Shown here: piece after piece, positions 15,493 to 21,199 of the stretch
Position numbering within the stretch: position 1 is the first letter of the stretch
Layout of the letters: each line of letters opens with the position of its first letter
Source of the DNA: Rubricoccaceae bacterium
GTDB lineage: Bacteria; Bacteroidota; Rhodothermia; Rhodothermales; Rubricoccaceae
DNA: 34,721 nt
Direction of reading: 5' to 3'
Assembly: GCA_024639085.1 (NCBI GenBank)
Contig: JAHEJB010000014.1
Coordinates: 1-34,721 of the forward strand
Position numbers and translations under genes: made by a program
Notes under the pieces: generated by a model
Databases searched by the model: none
Seen by the model: the letters and a program-made list of their open reading frames with translations, nothing else
Told to the model about the DNA's origin: nothing

Positions 15493-17369
15493 TTGGCTCT
15501 AGCCGAGTTCAGCAGGTTCTGCTTGTCGCAATGTTCCTGGGAATGGCCTTCTGTGCGCGAACCCCGGACGCAGGAGCAGGATGGCGAACCGCGTACGTCC
15601 TTTGCGCAGTGGCCGCTGGAATCATCGTGTTCATTCAATGGCAGAGTGGAAACGCCTCCATGCGTAAAGTAATTGTCGTCGGCATATTGTTGAGAGTCAT
15701 TGTCTTTCCGCTTACGCCCACGCTTTCCGATGACGGCTACCGCTATGTCTGGGATGGAATGCTTCAAGCACAGGAAGGCATCAATCCATATCACTATACT
15801 CCATCCGACTCGGAACTGAGCCACCTACACGACGATCCGGTTTTCGAAAACATCAACTCCGGAGAATACTTTTCGGTCTATCCGCCTGTCTCTCAAGTCG
15901 TCTTTGCATTAGGCGGTCTGATGTACCCGCTGGGGTGGCTGGCAAGCTGGTATTTGATCAAACTCTTGATGGTTGGAGGAGAGGTGCTTGGGCTGCTTTT
16001 GTTGAGCCGCATGGTCCGACCACGAGAGCTACTGCTGTATGCGTGGCATCCGCTCGTCGTCATGGAAACGGCCGGGCAGGCACATACCGAATCGCTAGCG
16101 GTGGGTCTACTTGTTTTAATGGTTTGGGCAATTCGACGAACAAGAAAGGGAACGACAGGATCAGCATTGTCCGCTGCTGGTTGGCTCAAACTCCTTCCGT
16201 TTGCCTTCACGCCGTTTGTCGTTCGTCGAATCGGCTGGAAGGCAGCAGTTGCTGGCTTGGTCGTAAGTGTTGCGTTGGCCGCACCATACACAGCATCGTA
16301 CGTAATCCCCCACGTGCGCGAATCGTTAAACCTGTACGTTCGGCTGTTTGAGTTCAATTCCGGTCCCTATTTGGCAATGAAGGGCATCTCCGCAGGACTT
16401 GGTCTGGGCGATGTCAGCAAAATTCTCGGTCCAGTTCTTCAGTGGACATTTGTAGGATTGTTGTTTGTGACATTCTTTCTGGACTGGAAACGCGGATGGT
16501 CAATTGAGAAGGTCCTGATTGTAGTTCTGAGTCTCTTCTTTTTGTGCGCAACGACGATTCATCCGTGGTACCTCGTCCCGCTTCTCGCACTCCTTCCTTT
16601 CGTTTCCGAACGTAAAACCGGACGATGGTTTGCCATAGCATGGAGTGTACTTGGCGTCATATCTCTGGCAACCTACTGGCGATACTCTGGACCACCCTGG
16701 GGCTATGCATTGGCCGTCTGGACAGGATGGATCCTTTGGACGGGCTTCATGCTAATCGCGTTCATCAAAGCCACTTTGCCCTCGCTAATGAGACGGCGAG
16801 CGCAAGAGAAATGGCGGTGGATTCAGAGCCAGCTCCCTCCACTACAACTTGGCAGATATTCAAGGGTGCTCGACCTCGGGGCAGGGGAGGGCTTTGTCGG
16901 CGAAGCGATCGAAAATGAAACCGGAGCACAGGTGTTGTTGGCGGATGTAGTTGACTTCAACGAAACTGACCTGCCACTGACACTCTACACTGGTTGTAGT
17001 CTCCCCTTTGAGGACGAAAGATTTGACACGACTCTTCTTGTGTTCGTTCTCCATCATGCAGAAAACGCAGAGCAAGTTCTTCTGGAAGCTGCGCGCGCGA
17101 CGAGTAGAAGAATTGTCGTCGTTGAGTCTGTGTATAGTGCGACGTGGCAACATCGTCTGCTCGATAGACTCGACCGGCTCGCTAACGCGCTACGCTCAAG
17201 CGACAAGATGGCGGATCAGGAAGAGTACCTCCATTTCCGAACTGATGCGGAATGGCGAAGCACATTCAGCCGTCTAGGGTTTACCGTTAAGCAGTTCTCC
17301 GAAAAAGGAAGGTGGATTCATCAGCAGGTTCTTTACGTCCTGCAACCTCCTAAGCACCAAGTCAATTAG
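15489..17369 (+). CDS. Fusion of GT-C-type membrane glycosyltransferase and class I SAM methyltransferase
   Basis: A 626-residue two-part protein. Residues 1 to about 430 are a polytopic membrane region with about ten hydrophobic helices. The first large loop carries SDDGYRYVWDG (80-90), followed by NPYHYTP and YPPVSQ, which match polyprenol-phosphate-mannose-dependent (GT-C, GT87-like) transferases. TTIHPWYLVPLLALLPF at about 355-370 is also typical. Residues 440-626 form a soluble class I methyltransferase with motif I VLDLGAGEGFVGEAI (460-474), an acidic strand-2 end (LADVVDFN) and motif IV-like FDTTLLVFVLHHAEN (512-526). The start is a GTG overlapping the RsbW-like stop. Acceptor and methylated product are unknown. 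Its stop overlaps the convergent miaA by 8 bp. Confidence 0.87.
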   Translation: MIGSSRVQQVLLVAMFLGMAFCARTPDAGAGWRTAYVLCAVAAGIIVFIQWQSGNASMRKVIVVGILLRVIVFPLTPTLSDDGYRYVWDGMLQAQEGINPYHYTPSDSELSHLHDDPVFENINSGEYFSVYPPVSQVVFALGGLMYPLGWLASWYLIKLLMVGGEVLGLLLLSRMVRPRELLLYAWHPLVVMETAGQAHTESLAVGLLVLMVWAIRRTRKGTTGSALSAAGWLKLLPFAFTPFVVRRIGWKAAVAGLVVSVALAAPYTASYVIPHVRESLNLYVRLFEFNSGPYLAMKGISAGLGLGDVSKILGPVLQWTFVGLLFVTFFLDWKRGWSIEKVLIVVLSLFFLCATTIHPWYLVPLLALLPFVSERKTGRWFAIAWSVLGVISLATYWRYSGPPWGYALAVWTGWILWTGFMLIAFIKATLPSLMRRRAQEKWRWIQSQLPPLQLGRYSRVLDLGAGEGFVGEAIENETGAQVLLADVVDFNETDLPLTLYTGCSLPFEDERFDTTLLVFVLHHAENAEQVLLEAARATSRRIVVVESVYSATWQHRLLDRLDRLANALRSSDKMADQEEYLHFRTDAEWRSTFSRLGFTVKQFSEKGRWIHQQVLYVLQPPKHQVN

Positions 17370-18342
17370 TCCGATTTGGAGTGCTTTCAAGGATTGCTTC
17401 AACTACATCGGGCACTGAATCAAACTCCGAAAGATCCAACCACTCGTATTCGGGACGCCTTCGGAACCACGTGAGTTGCCGCTTGGCATAGCGTCTGGTA
17501 TTTCGCTTGAGAAGCCGCACCATCTCATCGAAGTCGATCTCTCCGGAAAGGTGCGCAAAGGGCTCCTGATAGCCAATCGTCCTGAGTGGATTACTGTCAA
17601 GCTGATTGCCCGCGTCTATGAGTTTGCGAGCCTCCTCAAGCAAGCCCGATTGTAGCATATCATCCACTCGCGATTCGATGCGCGCATGAAGCTCCTCTCG
17701 AGGCCGCGTCAGGACCACGACCCGATACTGATAAGGCGGGGGCTTGACATTCTCGAAAAACGAAGACCATGGTTCTCCGGAGGTGTAGTAAACCTCAAGT
17801 GCTCGGACGAGGCGCTGGGTCTTTGTCGCATCAAGCAATGCCGCACCGATATAGTCAACTCGTTGCAATTCGTCATATAGTGCTGCGGCACCTTCGGTTG
17901 TTGATGCGCGCTCATTCAACTCGGCGCGAATCTGACAATCTCCATCTGGAATCTGGGCTAACCCATGTAGAAGTGCTTCCAGATAAAGGGTAGATCCTCC
18001 AACGACCAGGGGCTGCGTACCCCGCGTCAGAATCTCTGCAATTCGCCGGTTTGCTTCTACAGCAAACTTGCCAGCCGACCACGAGTCAGTCAGCTCCAAT
18101 TCGTCAATGAAGTGATGGGGGAGTGACTCTTGTTCCTCTACGCTCGGCTTCGCCGTCCCAATGTCTAGCCCACGAAAGATCTGTCTGCTATCGGCAGAGA
18201 TAATCTCAACTCCAATACGCTGGCCAATAGCCAAGCCAAGTGCCGTTTTGCCGACACCCGTTGGGCCAGCTAAGACAAGAAGCGGTGCGGGAGGTTTATC
18301 GCTCAATCCTTCAAATGGGTAGGACCAATCTCTTGGAACCAC
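17362..18342 (-). CDS. miaA: tRNA dimethylallyltransferase
   Basis: MiaA transfers a dimethylallyl group to N6 of adenosine 37 in tRNAs reading UNN codons. The 326-residue product has the P-loop AGPTGVGKT (25-33), ISADSRQIFRGLDIGTAKP around residues 50-70 (the substrate-binding Asp and Ser), LVVGGSTLYLEALLHGL, and the C-terminal TIGYQEPFAHLSG and RNTRRYAKRQLTWFRR. The start is a GTG inside the end of the preceding gene, supported by a strong GGAGGA 8 nt upstream. A TTG at 18306 that overlaps the upstream stop is less likely because its spacing is zero. It is the last gene of a four-gene minus-strand unit. Confidence 0.97.
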   Translation of the reverse strand: MVPRDWSYPFEGLSDKPPAPLLVLAGPTGVGKTALGLAIGQRIGVEIISADSRQIFRGLDIGTAKPSVEEQESLPHHFIDELELTDSWSAGKFAVEANRRIAEILTRGTQPLVVGGSTLYLEALLHGLAQIPDGDCQIRAELNERASTTEGAAALYDELQRVDYIGAALLDATKTQRLVRALEVYYTSGEPWSSFFENVKPPPYQYRVVVLTRPREELHARIESRVDDMLQSGLLEEARKLIDAGNQLDSNPLRTIGYQEPFAHLSGEIDFDEMVRLLKRNTRRYAKRQLTWFRRRPEYEWLDLSEFDSVPDVVEAILESTPNRTN

Positions 18343-19451
18343 GCCTGAATTCCTCCACGGAGGTTTACCACATTGTCAAATCCATTCATGCGCAAGTACT
18401 GAACGGCCTGGGCGGACCGACCACCCATGTGACAGTGCACGACCACAAGTGCATCGCTCTTGCGATCTTCCAATTCCATTGTTCGCAATGGCAGCATGGC
18501 AAGGGGAATCAAGGTGCCGCCAAGATTGCCAGTGGCAAACTCTTCGGGTTGACGAACATCCAGCAGGAACGGTGGATTGTCCGATTCAAGCAGCGTTTGA
18601 TACTCCTGAACCGTTATTTCTGGGATTCTATTCATTTGTCGGGGCTTTGAACGCGGCTGGCAAGAAGCTGCTGGCGCGCCCGATGAGGTGATTGTCGGTG
18701 ACTCGCCGCAAACGGGGCATTGTGGATCGCGGGCCACGCCCAGTGTTCGGAACTCCATCGAAAGTGTGTCCACTAGTAGCAGACGACCTTCAAGCCCTTC
18801 GCCGATACCGAGCAATCGCTTAATTACTTCTGTGGCCTGAATCGTCCCGAGCAAGCCAGGCAGAACACCCAGAACACCTGCTTCAGCACAAGATGGCACA
18901 AGATCAGCAGGAGGAGGCCCTGGGAAGAGGCAGCGATAGCACGGTCCGTCGGGCGCACAAAATACGCTGGCCTGCCCTTCGAAGCGGTTTATCGACGCGT
19001 AGACGTTGGGCACACCACACGTAACACAGGCGTCGTTTACTAGATAGCGGGTATTGAAGTTGTCACTGCCGTCTGCGACCACGTCATAGTTCGAGATAAT
19101 TTGTTCGGCATTAGAGCCATCAAGCTGTTTTTGATGAAGCTCTAGTTTGACGTGGGGATTGATCTCGCGAAGTCGCTCGGCTGCCACCTCGATTTTTGGC
19201 AAGCCCACGTCCTTCTCACCATAGAGAATCTGCCTTTGCAAATTGCTTGTATCCACAACGTCAAATTCAACCAGTCCAATTCGTCCGATGCCAGCAGCGG
19301 CTAGATACAAGGACACTGGAGATCCGAGGCCACCAAGCCCGACGATCAACACCGAGCTTTCTTTCAGCCGAGTCTGCCCCTGCTTCCCCACTTCGGGAAG
19401 AAGAAAATGGCGACTATATCGCTTTAGTTCTGCGGGAGTCAAGGTCGGCAC
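18303..19451 (-). CDS. ThiF/MoeB-family adenylyltransferase fused to a rhodanese domain
   Basis: A 382-residue E1-like enzyme that should adenylate the C-terminus of a ubiquitin-like sulfur-carrier protein (MoaD, ThiS or similar) and pass sulfur through its rhodanese domain. The nucleotide loop is VGLGGLGSP (38-45), followed by DVVDTSNLQRQ. Zinc is held by C171/C174 (CYRC) and C245/C248 (CPVC), and the conserved catalytic-type C188 is in PSCAEAGVLGVLPG. The rhodanese domain covers about 275-382 with active-site C340 in HCHMGGRS. This architecture is that of MoeBR/Uba4/MOCS3. The GTG start lies 3 bp after the lycopene cyclase stop. Whether it serves molybdopterin, thiamine, cysteine or tRNA thiolation cannot be told; its miaA neighbour is compatible with tRNA work. 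Confidence 0.92.
   Translation of the reverse strand: MPTLTPAELKRYSRHFLLPEVGKQGQTRLKESSVLIVGLGGLGSPVSLYLAAAGIGRIGLVEFDVVDTSNLQRQILYGEKDVGLPKIEVAAERLREINPHVKLELHQKQLDGSNAEQIISNYDVVADGSDNFNTRYLVNDACVTCGVPNVYASINRFEGQASVFCAPDGPCYRCLFPGPPPADLVPSCAEAGVLGVLPGLLGTIQATEVIKRLLGIGEGLEGRLLLVDTLSMEFRTLGVARDPQCPVCGESPTITSSGAPAASCQPRSKPRQMNRIPEITVQEYQTLLESDNPPFLLDVRQPEEFATGNLGGTLIPLAMLPLRTMELEDRKSDALVVVHCHMGGRSAQAVQYLRMNGFDNVVNLRGGIQAWFQEIGPTHLKD
18351..18356 (-). promoter_or_regulatory. Strong Shine-Dalgarno of miaA inside the upstream gene
   Basis: The minus strand reads GGAGGA here, 8 nt before the miaA GTG at 18342. It lies within the 3' coding part of the ThiF-rhodanese gene and decides the miaA start. 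Confidence 0.7.
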
Positions 19452-19454
19452 AGA

Positions 19455-20183
19455 TTAGGTCGTGGCTGGGTTATCGGGCAGCAACATCGCAACGCCTTGG
19501 ACAACCATCCAGTTCGTCACGAAGAAGAAAACGGCTTCTTCGATCGGGAGTCCGAACGGATCGAATCCGAGGCTGTACTGCTCGGAGATGCTCCAGACCC
19601 CATCACCCAGCGCAACTCTGTCGGCAATCCACAAATAAACTGTTGGCACAGCGATGCCAAGAGCAAGCCGTTTTCGCTCTGGCCAGATCTTTCGCAAGCC
19701 GAGCCACATCAGAACTGCCATCACTGGACAACACCACGCCAGAATCAGTGCTAGATAGAGCGTATTATCAGGCCCCCACAGGAGTAATCCGGCGCATAGA
19801 ACAGTCGTGCAGAATGGCAAAGTTACAGCTGCCACGTTCCCGCCGTTTGATATCGTATCTTCTCTCCGCGAGGGAATATCCAGGCTTCTCAGGAGAAAAT
19901 AAAACAAACCCGTCAAGAGCGGCTGAAGCATGAAGAAAGCGTACTCTTCTACTGGCACATAGCCAACGGTGCCAAGCACGCGATCTGGACCATAGAACCA
20001 CACGCCACGGTAGATGAGGTAATTGTCCCACAGACTGGTATAGACAAACGCCGCTAGAACAATCAAGCCAAGCGCGCGCAAGGCTAGGCCACGTGGTGCT
20101 CCACCAAGCGGCCTTCGCTGCAAAACGGCAAGGACGAGAATAGGAGGGAGGATAAACCAGAGATGGAACGAGAGGTACGTCAC
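19455..20183 (-). CDS. crtYcd: Lycopene beta-cyclase, fused CrtYc-CrtYd (membrane) type
   Basis: A 242-residue polytopic membrane protein with about six to seven hydrophobic helices. It is recognised as the heterodimeric-type carotenoid cyclase in fused form, which converts lycopene to beta- or gamma-carotene. Two related halves are visible: D53 with GVWFYGP and P77-V-E-E-Y in the first, and D188 with GDGVWSI and P213-I-E-E-A in the second. The paired PxEE motifs are the family signature. The length suits a fused CrtYcd, whereas separate CrtYc and CrtYd are about 100-120 residues each. No other carotenoid gene (crtB, crtI) is in the window. The ATG overlaps the recombinase stop by ATGA at 20180-20183. 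It could make a modified ring if the family branch differs. Confidence 0.87.
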   Translation of the reverse strand: MTYLSFHLWFILPPILVLAVLQRRPLGGAPRGLALRALGLIVLAAFVYTSLWDNYLIYRGVWFYGPDRVLGTVGYVPVEEYAFFMLQPLLTGLFYFLLRSLDIPSRREDTISNGGNVAAVTLPFCTTVLCAGLLLWGPDNTLYLALILAWCCPVMAVLMWLGLRKIWPERKRLALGIAVPTVYLWIADRVALGDGVWSISEQYSLGFDPFGLPIEEAVFFFVTNWMVVQGVAMLLPDNPATT

Positions 20184-21133
20184 TCGCCTTTCGGTTCGCT
20201 GCTCAGATCGATGTAGTCTGCAGCACTATCGCTAAGGCGATCTCGTTGATGCACATAAATCATTGTCGTTTCAAGGTTCTTGTGTCGTGCGTGCGCCTGT
20301 ACCTGCTGTAATGAGGCTCCCGACTCTATGGCTAGCGTACAGCCCGTATGCCGAAGTGTATGGGCTCCAACACGGGCAGTAATGCCAGCCCGCTCTGCAG
20401 TCTTACGAACAATCGTGTAAATGGATGTTGTTGACAATCTCTTGCCAAGACTATTGCGACTCAAAGAGCGCCAGACTGGGCCTGAACCGTAGCCATAGTG
20501 ACTCCTGTGTTTCGAAATGGCTTCAGCCACGTGTTCGGGCATCTTGATAAATTGATCCGTACCGCCTTTTGTAAATGGGAGATCCAAAACCCAATAACGG
20601 TCTATCGTTCTAAGATGTTGGAAATCCATCGTGTGCGCTTCGGAGCGTCGAAGAACACAATGCAGCAGAACAAGTAGCAAGGTCTTGTCTCTGACAAAGG
20701 CCTGAGACTTAGGATCAACGGCTTCTAAGAGCCGCGTGGCCTCGTACCGTGAAAGCACAGTGATTGGCCGATCGCGACGATGTACTCGAGGAATGCGGCG
20801 TATAAGCTGGCGATTCGCGGGGTTGTGCTCAATTAATTGCAGAGCCACCAGCCACGAGAAGAACCCACGCAAGGCCGCGACTCTACGCTGCATGCTAGAT
20901 GCTTTTGCGCCGTCCATGCTCATGCGTTCGAGATGCTCATTCACGTCAACGAACGAGACGGTGCGGGCTACGCGCAATGTGATGACTTCGCTTTCGAAGA
21001 ACTGTACGATGTCGTTTGTATACGAGCGACGCGTGTTCTCGGCATCAAACCGCAGCAAATACAGCGGAAGCAGGTCGGTATCCAACGAAGTGTGCTGGAG
21101 ACCATCTTGACTGGACGGAACTAGATTTGTCAA
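20180..21133 (-). CDS. Tyrosine recombinase / integrase (XerC/D-like)
   Basis: A 317-residue site-specific tyrosine recombinase. The N-terminal core-binding (SAM-like) domain spans about residues 20-105. The catalytic domain retains the full set: R162 (LRRSE), K189 in the beta-hairpin (LPFTKGG), H258 and R261 (AHTLRHTG), H284 (ARHKNLETT) and Y293 (MIYVH). The length is close to XerC/XerD (about 300), but the C-terminal segment is not a clean XerC/XerD match, so a stand-alone integrase is also possible. The start is a TTG supported by GGAG at 21141-21144 with 7 nt spacing. The stop overlaps the lycopene cyclase start, an odd partnership. No att site, excisionase or other mobile gene is visible. 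Confidence 0.9.
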   Translation of the reverse strand: MTNLVPSSQDGLQHTSLDTDLLPLYLLRFDAENTRRSYTNDIVQFFESEVITLRVARTVSFVDVNEHLERMSMDGAKASSMQRRVAALRGFFSWLVALQLIEHNPANRQLIRRIPRVHRRDRPITVLSRYEATRLLEAVDPKSQAFVRDKTLLLVLLHCVLRRSEAHTMDFQHLRTIDRYWVLDLPFTKGGTDQFIKMPEHVAEAISKHRSHYGYGSGPVWRSLSRNSLGKRLSTTSIYTIVRKTAERAGITARVGAHTLRHTGCTLAIESGASLQQVQAHARHKNLETTMIYVHQRDRLSDSAADYIDLSSEPKGE

Positions 21134-21144: not shown

Positions 21145-21157
21145 ATTAATGTGATTG

Positions 21158-21175
21158 CGATAATAACAGTTATCG
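21158..21175. promoter_or_regulatory. Palindrome (candidate operator) upstream of the recombinase gene
   Basis: CGATAA at 21158-21163 and TTATCG at 21170-21175 form a perfect 6-bp inverted repeat with 6 nt between them. A nested 5-1-5 palindrome ATAAC-A-GTTAT lies at 21163-21173. It covers the proposed -10 and part of the spacer of the recombinase promoter. There is no T-run, so it is not a terminator. Confidence 0.4.
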
Positions 21176-21199
21176 TAAGTATGAACAAGTAGGTATATC

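Follow-up and report, generated by a model that had tools for sequence, protein, structure and literature searches.

Dimer resolution by XerCD/dif is generally regarded as nearly universal, and the few described exceptions, XerS, XerH, XerA and XerL, are systems that use a single recombinase (PMC5357621, PMC9765430), whose origin is treated as an open question in a review of the subject (PMC5357621). One survey gives dif predictions for Bacteroidetes (19 of 19) and Gemmatimonadetes (1 of 1; PMC3025954); Salinibacter or Rhodothermus may be among its species, with another site predicted for them. Among the open-licence papers covered, none that we found describes Xer or dif in Rhodothermales. 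Here we describe a locus from this order that probably belongs with the exceptions: we are fairly confident that its tyrosine recombinase, together with a 28-bp palindrome beside the gene, forms a Xer/dif system with a single recombinase, comparable to XerS/difSL and XerH/difH, that takes the place of XerCD.

The window, meaning the whole 34,721-nucleotide stretch analysed, corresponds to contig C103 in the draft genome (2.83 Mb, 88.7% complete) of a Rubricoccaceae bacterium. On its minus strand, positions 20180 to 21133 hold an open reading frame of 317 codons whose Pfam matches, catalytic set and position in a tree mark it as a tyrosine recombinase of what we call clade A, a candidate single-recombinase Xer protein. 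The protein matches Phage_integrase (88.9 bits) and a SAM-like N-terminal domain (30.2 bits), and, as the earlier note had recognized in describing an apparently active enzyme, all six catalytic residues are kept (R162, K189, H258, R261, H284 and Y293), giving it both the R-K-H-R-H/W-Y set and the domain expected of a tyrosine recombinase; its activity is predicted from these residues. The catalytic set is invariant in a 23-row alignment of clade A, and RKHRHY is present in 68 of 69 distinct clade A sequences. TTG is the sole start option at 21133, and because two further in-frame TTG codons (21085, 21058) are next in line and alignments with homologues begin around residue 7–20, the exact start is uncertain. 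A structure predicted with no templates (mean pLDDT 87.6) matches the folds of XerA, integron integrase, XerH, Cre and lambda integrase, a model that supports the recombinase fold and does not speak to function.

Clade A proteins share 44–65% identity across Rhodothermales, the closest named records come from the same order (Rhodothermus, Rubrivirga, Longimonas and Roseithermus among them), and the clade A profile matches 63 of 114 genomes of the order at the threshold used for all clade A and clade B genome counts (E <= 1e-40). The window's recombinase falls far below the NCBIfam cut-offs for XerD (TIGR02225, 121.8 bits against 329.6) and XerC (TIGR02224, 119.1 against 335.15), and likewise below those for archaeal XerA (NF040815, 105.9 against 220), XerS (41.3 against 267) and integron integrase (TIGR02249, 69 against 265), while a profile match to a XerH chain reaches 50.7 bits. 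In a maximum-likelihood tree of 87 sequences, unrooted and with its deep joins flagged as sensitive to long branches, A forms a 33-member clade (support 100/98) apart from Bacteroidota XerC, Bacteroidota XerD and the E. coli pair. Model scores and tree together exclude XerC/XerD orthology, and the equation of a housekeeping role with such orthology, on which the earlier note had built its refuting case, breaks down here.

The canonical pair is missing from the order as a whole. Of 60 Rhodothermales genomes, not one reaches the XerD cut-off (best 188 bits); outside the order, a sample spanning the phylum gave passing scores in 53 of 53 genomes, including seven from the same class, and most of the 53 carry a second, XerC-like match at about 230–320 bits. 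Whether another xerC or xerD exists elsewhere in the window's genome, a question already raised in the earlier note, is answered negatively for its four Phage_integrase matches, none of which is XerC or XerD; because that genome is only 88.7% complete, the absence rests on its relatives. The same draft assembly also includes an integron integrase gene (L001, G000:C7:1-1014; 401.9 bits, cut-off 265) that is cut off at the end of a contig that may be the organism's own. A search for canonical dif (KCGCATAA-N6-TTATGTWAANT with 3 mismatches) found nothing convincing in Rhodothermales and found dif-like sites in Bacteroidota outside the order, a comparison of weak specificity since a control pattern is equally frequent in AT-rich genomes.

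The recombinase gene is instead accompanied by a site of its own. At 21153 to 21180 on the minus strand, 19 bp from the TTG start, lies a candidate dif-like recombination site of 28 bp, with 11-bp arms and a 6-bp spacer, which reads ACTTACGATAA CTGTTA TTATCGCAATC in the gene sense and is laid out as dif is, 11-6-11. Shuffles never contain its core, the window contains it once, and the site pattern has a single occurrence in the window's genome. Among 58 A-type loci drawn from Rhodothermales and from Latescibacterota/Gemmatimonadota, 37 carry GATAA-N6-TTATC within 1 kb upstream of the gene (dinucleotide shuffles gave a mean of 0.04 loci and a maximum of 1), and in each of the 32 distinct A sites the arms are symmetric over their five inner base pairs. 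Whole-genome scans of the 114 genomes with a fuller pattern returned 26 places in 23 genomes (reversed control, 0), with 19 of the 26 less than 5 kb from an A gene; the pattern is present in 22 of 63 genomes that carry A and in 1 of 51 that lack it (p = 4e-6). Sites of the same kind also stand upstream of A-type genes with 36–40% identity from records whose titles name Latescibacterota, Gemmatimonadetes and Magnetovibrio, one example being ACTACCGATAA CAGGCA TTATCGGTAGT. The association is incomplete: an exact-core site within 1 kb is lacking at roughly one in three of the sampled A loci, including that of G001, from the window's own genus, and in the genus that includes Rhodothermus matching sites lie 5–75 kb from the A gene or on another contig, a few of which may be chance matches. 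In several loci an additional reading frame lies between site and gene (L041:6376-6924, L042:5332-5967, L254:3412-3960, L258:3324-3968, L260:3187-3882, L265:2882-3457 and L049:6542-7984, the last in frame with the recombinase); Pfam identifies NUMOD4/HNH in L041 and HNH in L049, the rest look similar by eye, and these frames are possibly homing elements at a Xer locus.

A dif-like site is expected in the region of the replication terminus, and in complete relatives of the window, which is itself a MAG contig, the module lies near it. As a fraction of the chromosome measured from dnaA, the A gene is found at 0.467 in G010, 0.476 in G019, 0.531 in G015, 0.459 in G041 and 0.537 in G002; for these five genomes of different families the range of 0.459–0.537 has p of about 4e-6 if positions are uniform and independent, though they are not fully independent because gene order is conserved. 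A sixth genome (G004) has A at 0.572, and in G032 it is found at 0.605 from the full-length dnaA or 0.532 from a second dnaA-like gene. With GC skew sampled in 20-kb stretches, the site lies 54 kb from the local cumulative maximum in both G041 and G032, and in G010 a matching site at 1678614, 75 kb from the A gene, coincides with a local skew change. On a Latescibacterota chromosome, skew calculated in 2-kb bins switches sign where the site lies (4856963), with coarse genome-wide skew being noisy.

One recombinase whose residues predict activity, a linked dif-like palindrome, a position near the terminus and no canonical partner are the grounds on which we read the locus as a single-recombinase Xer/dif system. 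Under this model, two dimers of A would bind the 28-bp palindrome directly upstream of their own gene, cut it, and recombine two copies of the site, converting chromosome dimers to monomers at the replication terminus; A would act at this task without a partner. Activation by FtsK may form part of the mechanism: all 20 genomes tested, also those with neither A nor B, encode FtsK with a gamma domain, which makes such activation possible.

A second set of recombinases, clade B, suggests that A is one of two modules of this kind. Found in 43 of the 114 genomes, B is also active by the measure of its catalytic set, since 27 of its 28 distinct sequences retain RKHRHY. It has its own, different upstream palindrome, ATGTAACATAA-N6-TTATGTTACAT, which occurs in 27 of 43 genomes that carry B, in one place each, and in 1 of 71 that lack it (p = 6e-14), and both modules lie near the replication terminus where checked. 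The A and B genes stand side by side at L035:4978-7523 (G001, opposite strands) and L066:624-2457 (G057, tandem); the stretch around both pairs keeps the B site and yielded no A-type site, so these loci may capture B in the course of displacing A. Across the sampled loci, no A-type site was found near B genes or near those of a third clade, C. A B-type palindrome also lies about 140 bp upstream of another recombinase's match in G014, a genome with no B (L344, G014:C184:49836-49855), and may mark yet another module of recombinase and site. Both A and B are absent, at the threshold used, from several genomes that are nearly complete (G018, G016, G034, G009 and G046), and the A/B system is therefore not universal in the order.

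The palindrome might alternatively be nothing other than an operator for the recombinase-crtYcd unit, bound by the recombinase or by another regulator and never recombined, and this explanation, which we consider unlikely, is the one that fares best among those opposed to ours. Operators are often palindromes near promoters, and 19 bp from the start codon is where one would be expected; indeed, the window's site overlaps the likely promoter region and could for that reason have an operator role. As a sole function, however, regulation fits poorly with distances between site and matched gene start that range from 42 to 883 bp and reach nearly 4 kb in L039, with HNH-type frames that separate site and gene in several genomes, and with some B-type genomes in which the single site is 1–33 kb from the gene. 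An operator would likewise leave unexplained why the sites have the 11-6-11 geometry of dif and coincide with changes in GC skew.

Clade C raises a different alternative, in which A and a catalytically dead C would assemble as a hetero-tetramer, a half-dead counterpart of the XerCD pair. Members of C are Xer-like and near-universal (L055:4870-5886, L060:4529-5467, L061, L063 and others), occurring as a single copy in 104 of the 114 genomes and, in several of them, adjoining a 2-oxoacid dehydrogenase E2 gene; C was not found in the window's incomplete genome and is present in G001. Both catalytic arginines are lost in 36 of 36 distinct C sequences, and three from the window's family have lost the tyrosine also, so C cannot be an ordinary recombinase and is rejected as a universal active Xer partner; its conservation makes a non-catalytic role probable. 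That C is single-copy and so widespread, and that the unrooted tree places it beside A, would suit a mixed complex, but the A–C join is flagged as possible long-branch attraction, C is equally present in genomes that have B or that have neither A nor B, and the sites are palindromes, near-perfect in the case of B and with complete symmetry of the inner arms in the case of A, as suits one protein on both arms. We accordingly judge this arrangement improbable, somewhat more so than the operator. A broader scenario, which we rate as somewhat less likely than not, is that Rhodothermales exchanged the ancestral XerC/XerD pair for A and B as interchangeable, self-contained modules of recombinase and dif, each able to oust the other at the terminus, with the dead C retained in nearly every genome in a structural or regulatory capacity; the A module, which Latescibacterota and Gemmatimonadota also have, may then have crossed phyla together with its site.

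A crtYcd-type lycopene cyclase gene (19455–20183, minus strand; CarR_dom_SF, TIGR03462, 140.9 bits) overlaps the end of the recombinase gene by four nucleotides, reported in the earlier note as ATGA and in fact GTGA, a GTG start over a TGA stop. Behind it on the same strand, in the order and with the 3-bp gap previously described, come a gene for a ThiF/MoeB-like adenylyltransferase with a C-terminal rhodanese domain (18303–19451) and miaA, encoding IPP transferase (17362–18342), which overlaps its neighbour only if the GTG at 18342 is used. crtYcd is probably co-transcribed with the recombinase, and crtYcd, thiF and miaA are probably downstream passengers on its transcript. Among the genes downstream of clade A recombinases, miaA is the most widely conserved, with A upstream on the same strand in most sampled loci; between them lie, variably, a crtI-like oxidoreductase gene, crtYcd, and ThiF-rhodanese or a lone rhodanese, and since the window has no crtI-like gene, crtYcd follows A directly, as it does in G001 of the same genus. 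This neighbourhood is the usual one in Rhodothermales, and clade A orthologues from many families hold it, both with and without carotenoid genes downstream. This variable link to pigment genes indicates that the recombinase is older than the link, and the carotenoid genes are its downstream neighbours, not its targets.

Of the two origins entertained in the earlier note, an integrated element whose integrase came to control a pigment gene is not supported, given this synteny; the housekeeping Xer-type protein in a shared operon is supported as regards function and synteny, the gene being vertically conserved in the order, near the terminus and beside a dif-like site, with a product that is no XerC/XerD orthologue. 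Still more improbable than either rival above is that A is a mobile-element integrase and its palindrome an attachment site whose place near the terminus was inherited by chance, since, although integrases are frequently found beside their own att sites and extra non-syntenic A copies exist in G006, G014, G047, G053 and G059, A is vertical and syntenic in many families, most genomes have one site, neither cargo genes nor a second flanking site is seen in the window, and canonical XerCD has been lost in exactly this order. No attachment sites or element remains were seen. Extra A-type recombinases outside the usual neighbourhood and with no clear site (L052, L053 and the further copies in G047, G053 and G059) are possibly mobile.

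If the single-recombinase reading is true, an entire order lives without canonical XerCD and carries two gene-plus-site modules, offering a view of how an essential-looking system is replaced and how single recombinases arise. The 28-bp sites would also be new candidate targets for dif-integrating elements, and since they are short and specific, the claim is amenable to simple excision assays. Compared with XerC/XerD and dif, the A system has the same fold and catalytic set, an 11-6-11 site near the terminus and FtsK gamma, and departs from them in relying on one active recombinase where they use two, in its palindromic arms and cis-linked site, and in its separate clade. XerA of archaea is likewise a single recombinase, and its structures are the top fold matches of the A model, but A scores 105.9 bits where the archaeal model demands 220. 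XerL/dif of Legionellales, a comparable find, resembles A as a single-recombinase system in an order thought to be Xer-less (PMC9765430), the recombinase and host being different. With XerH/difH of Helicobacter and Campylobacter the locus shares one recombinase and a site near the gene (PMC5357621), and XerH is among the structural neighbours of the predicted A fold; A is only distantly related to it in sequence (50.7 bits) and occurs in another host group. XerS/difSL of streptococci and lactococci is also a module of one tyrosine recombinase with its site immediately beside the gene, and differs in that difSL spans 31 bp with an 11-bp centre (PMC5357621), whereas the A site spans 28 bp with a centre of 6 bp.
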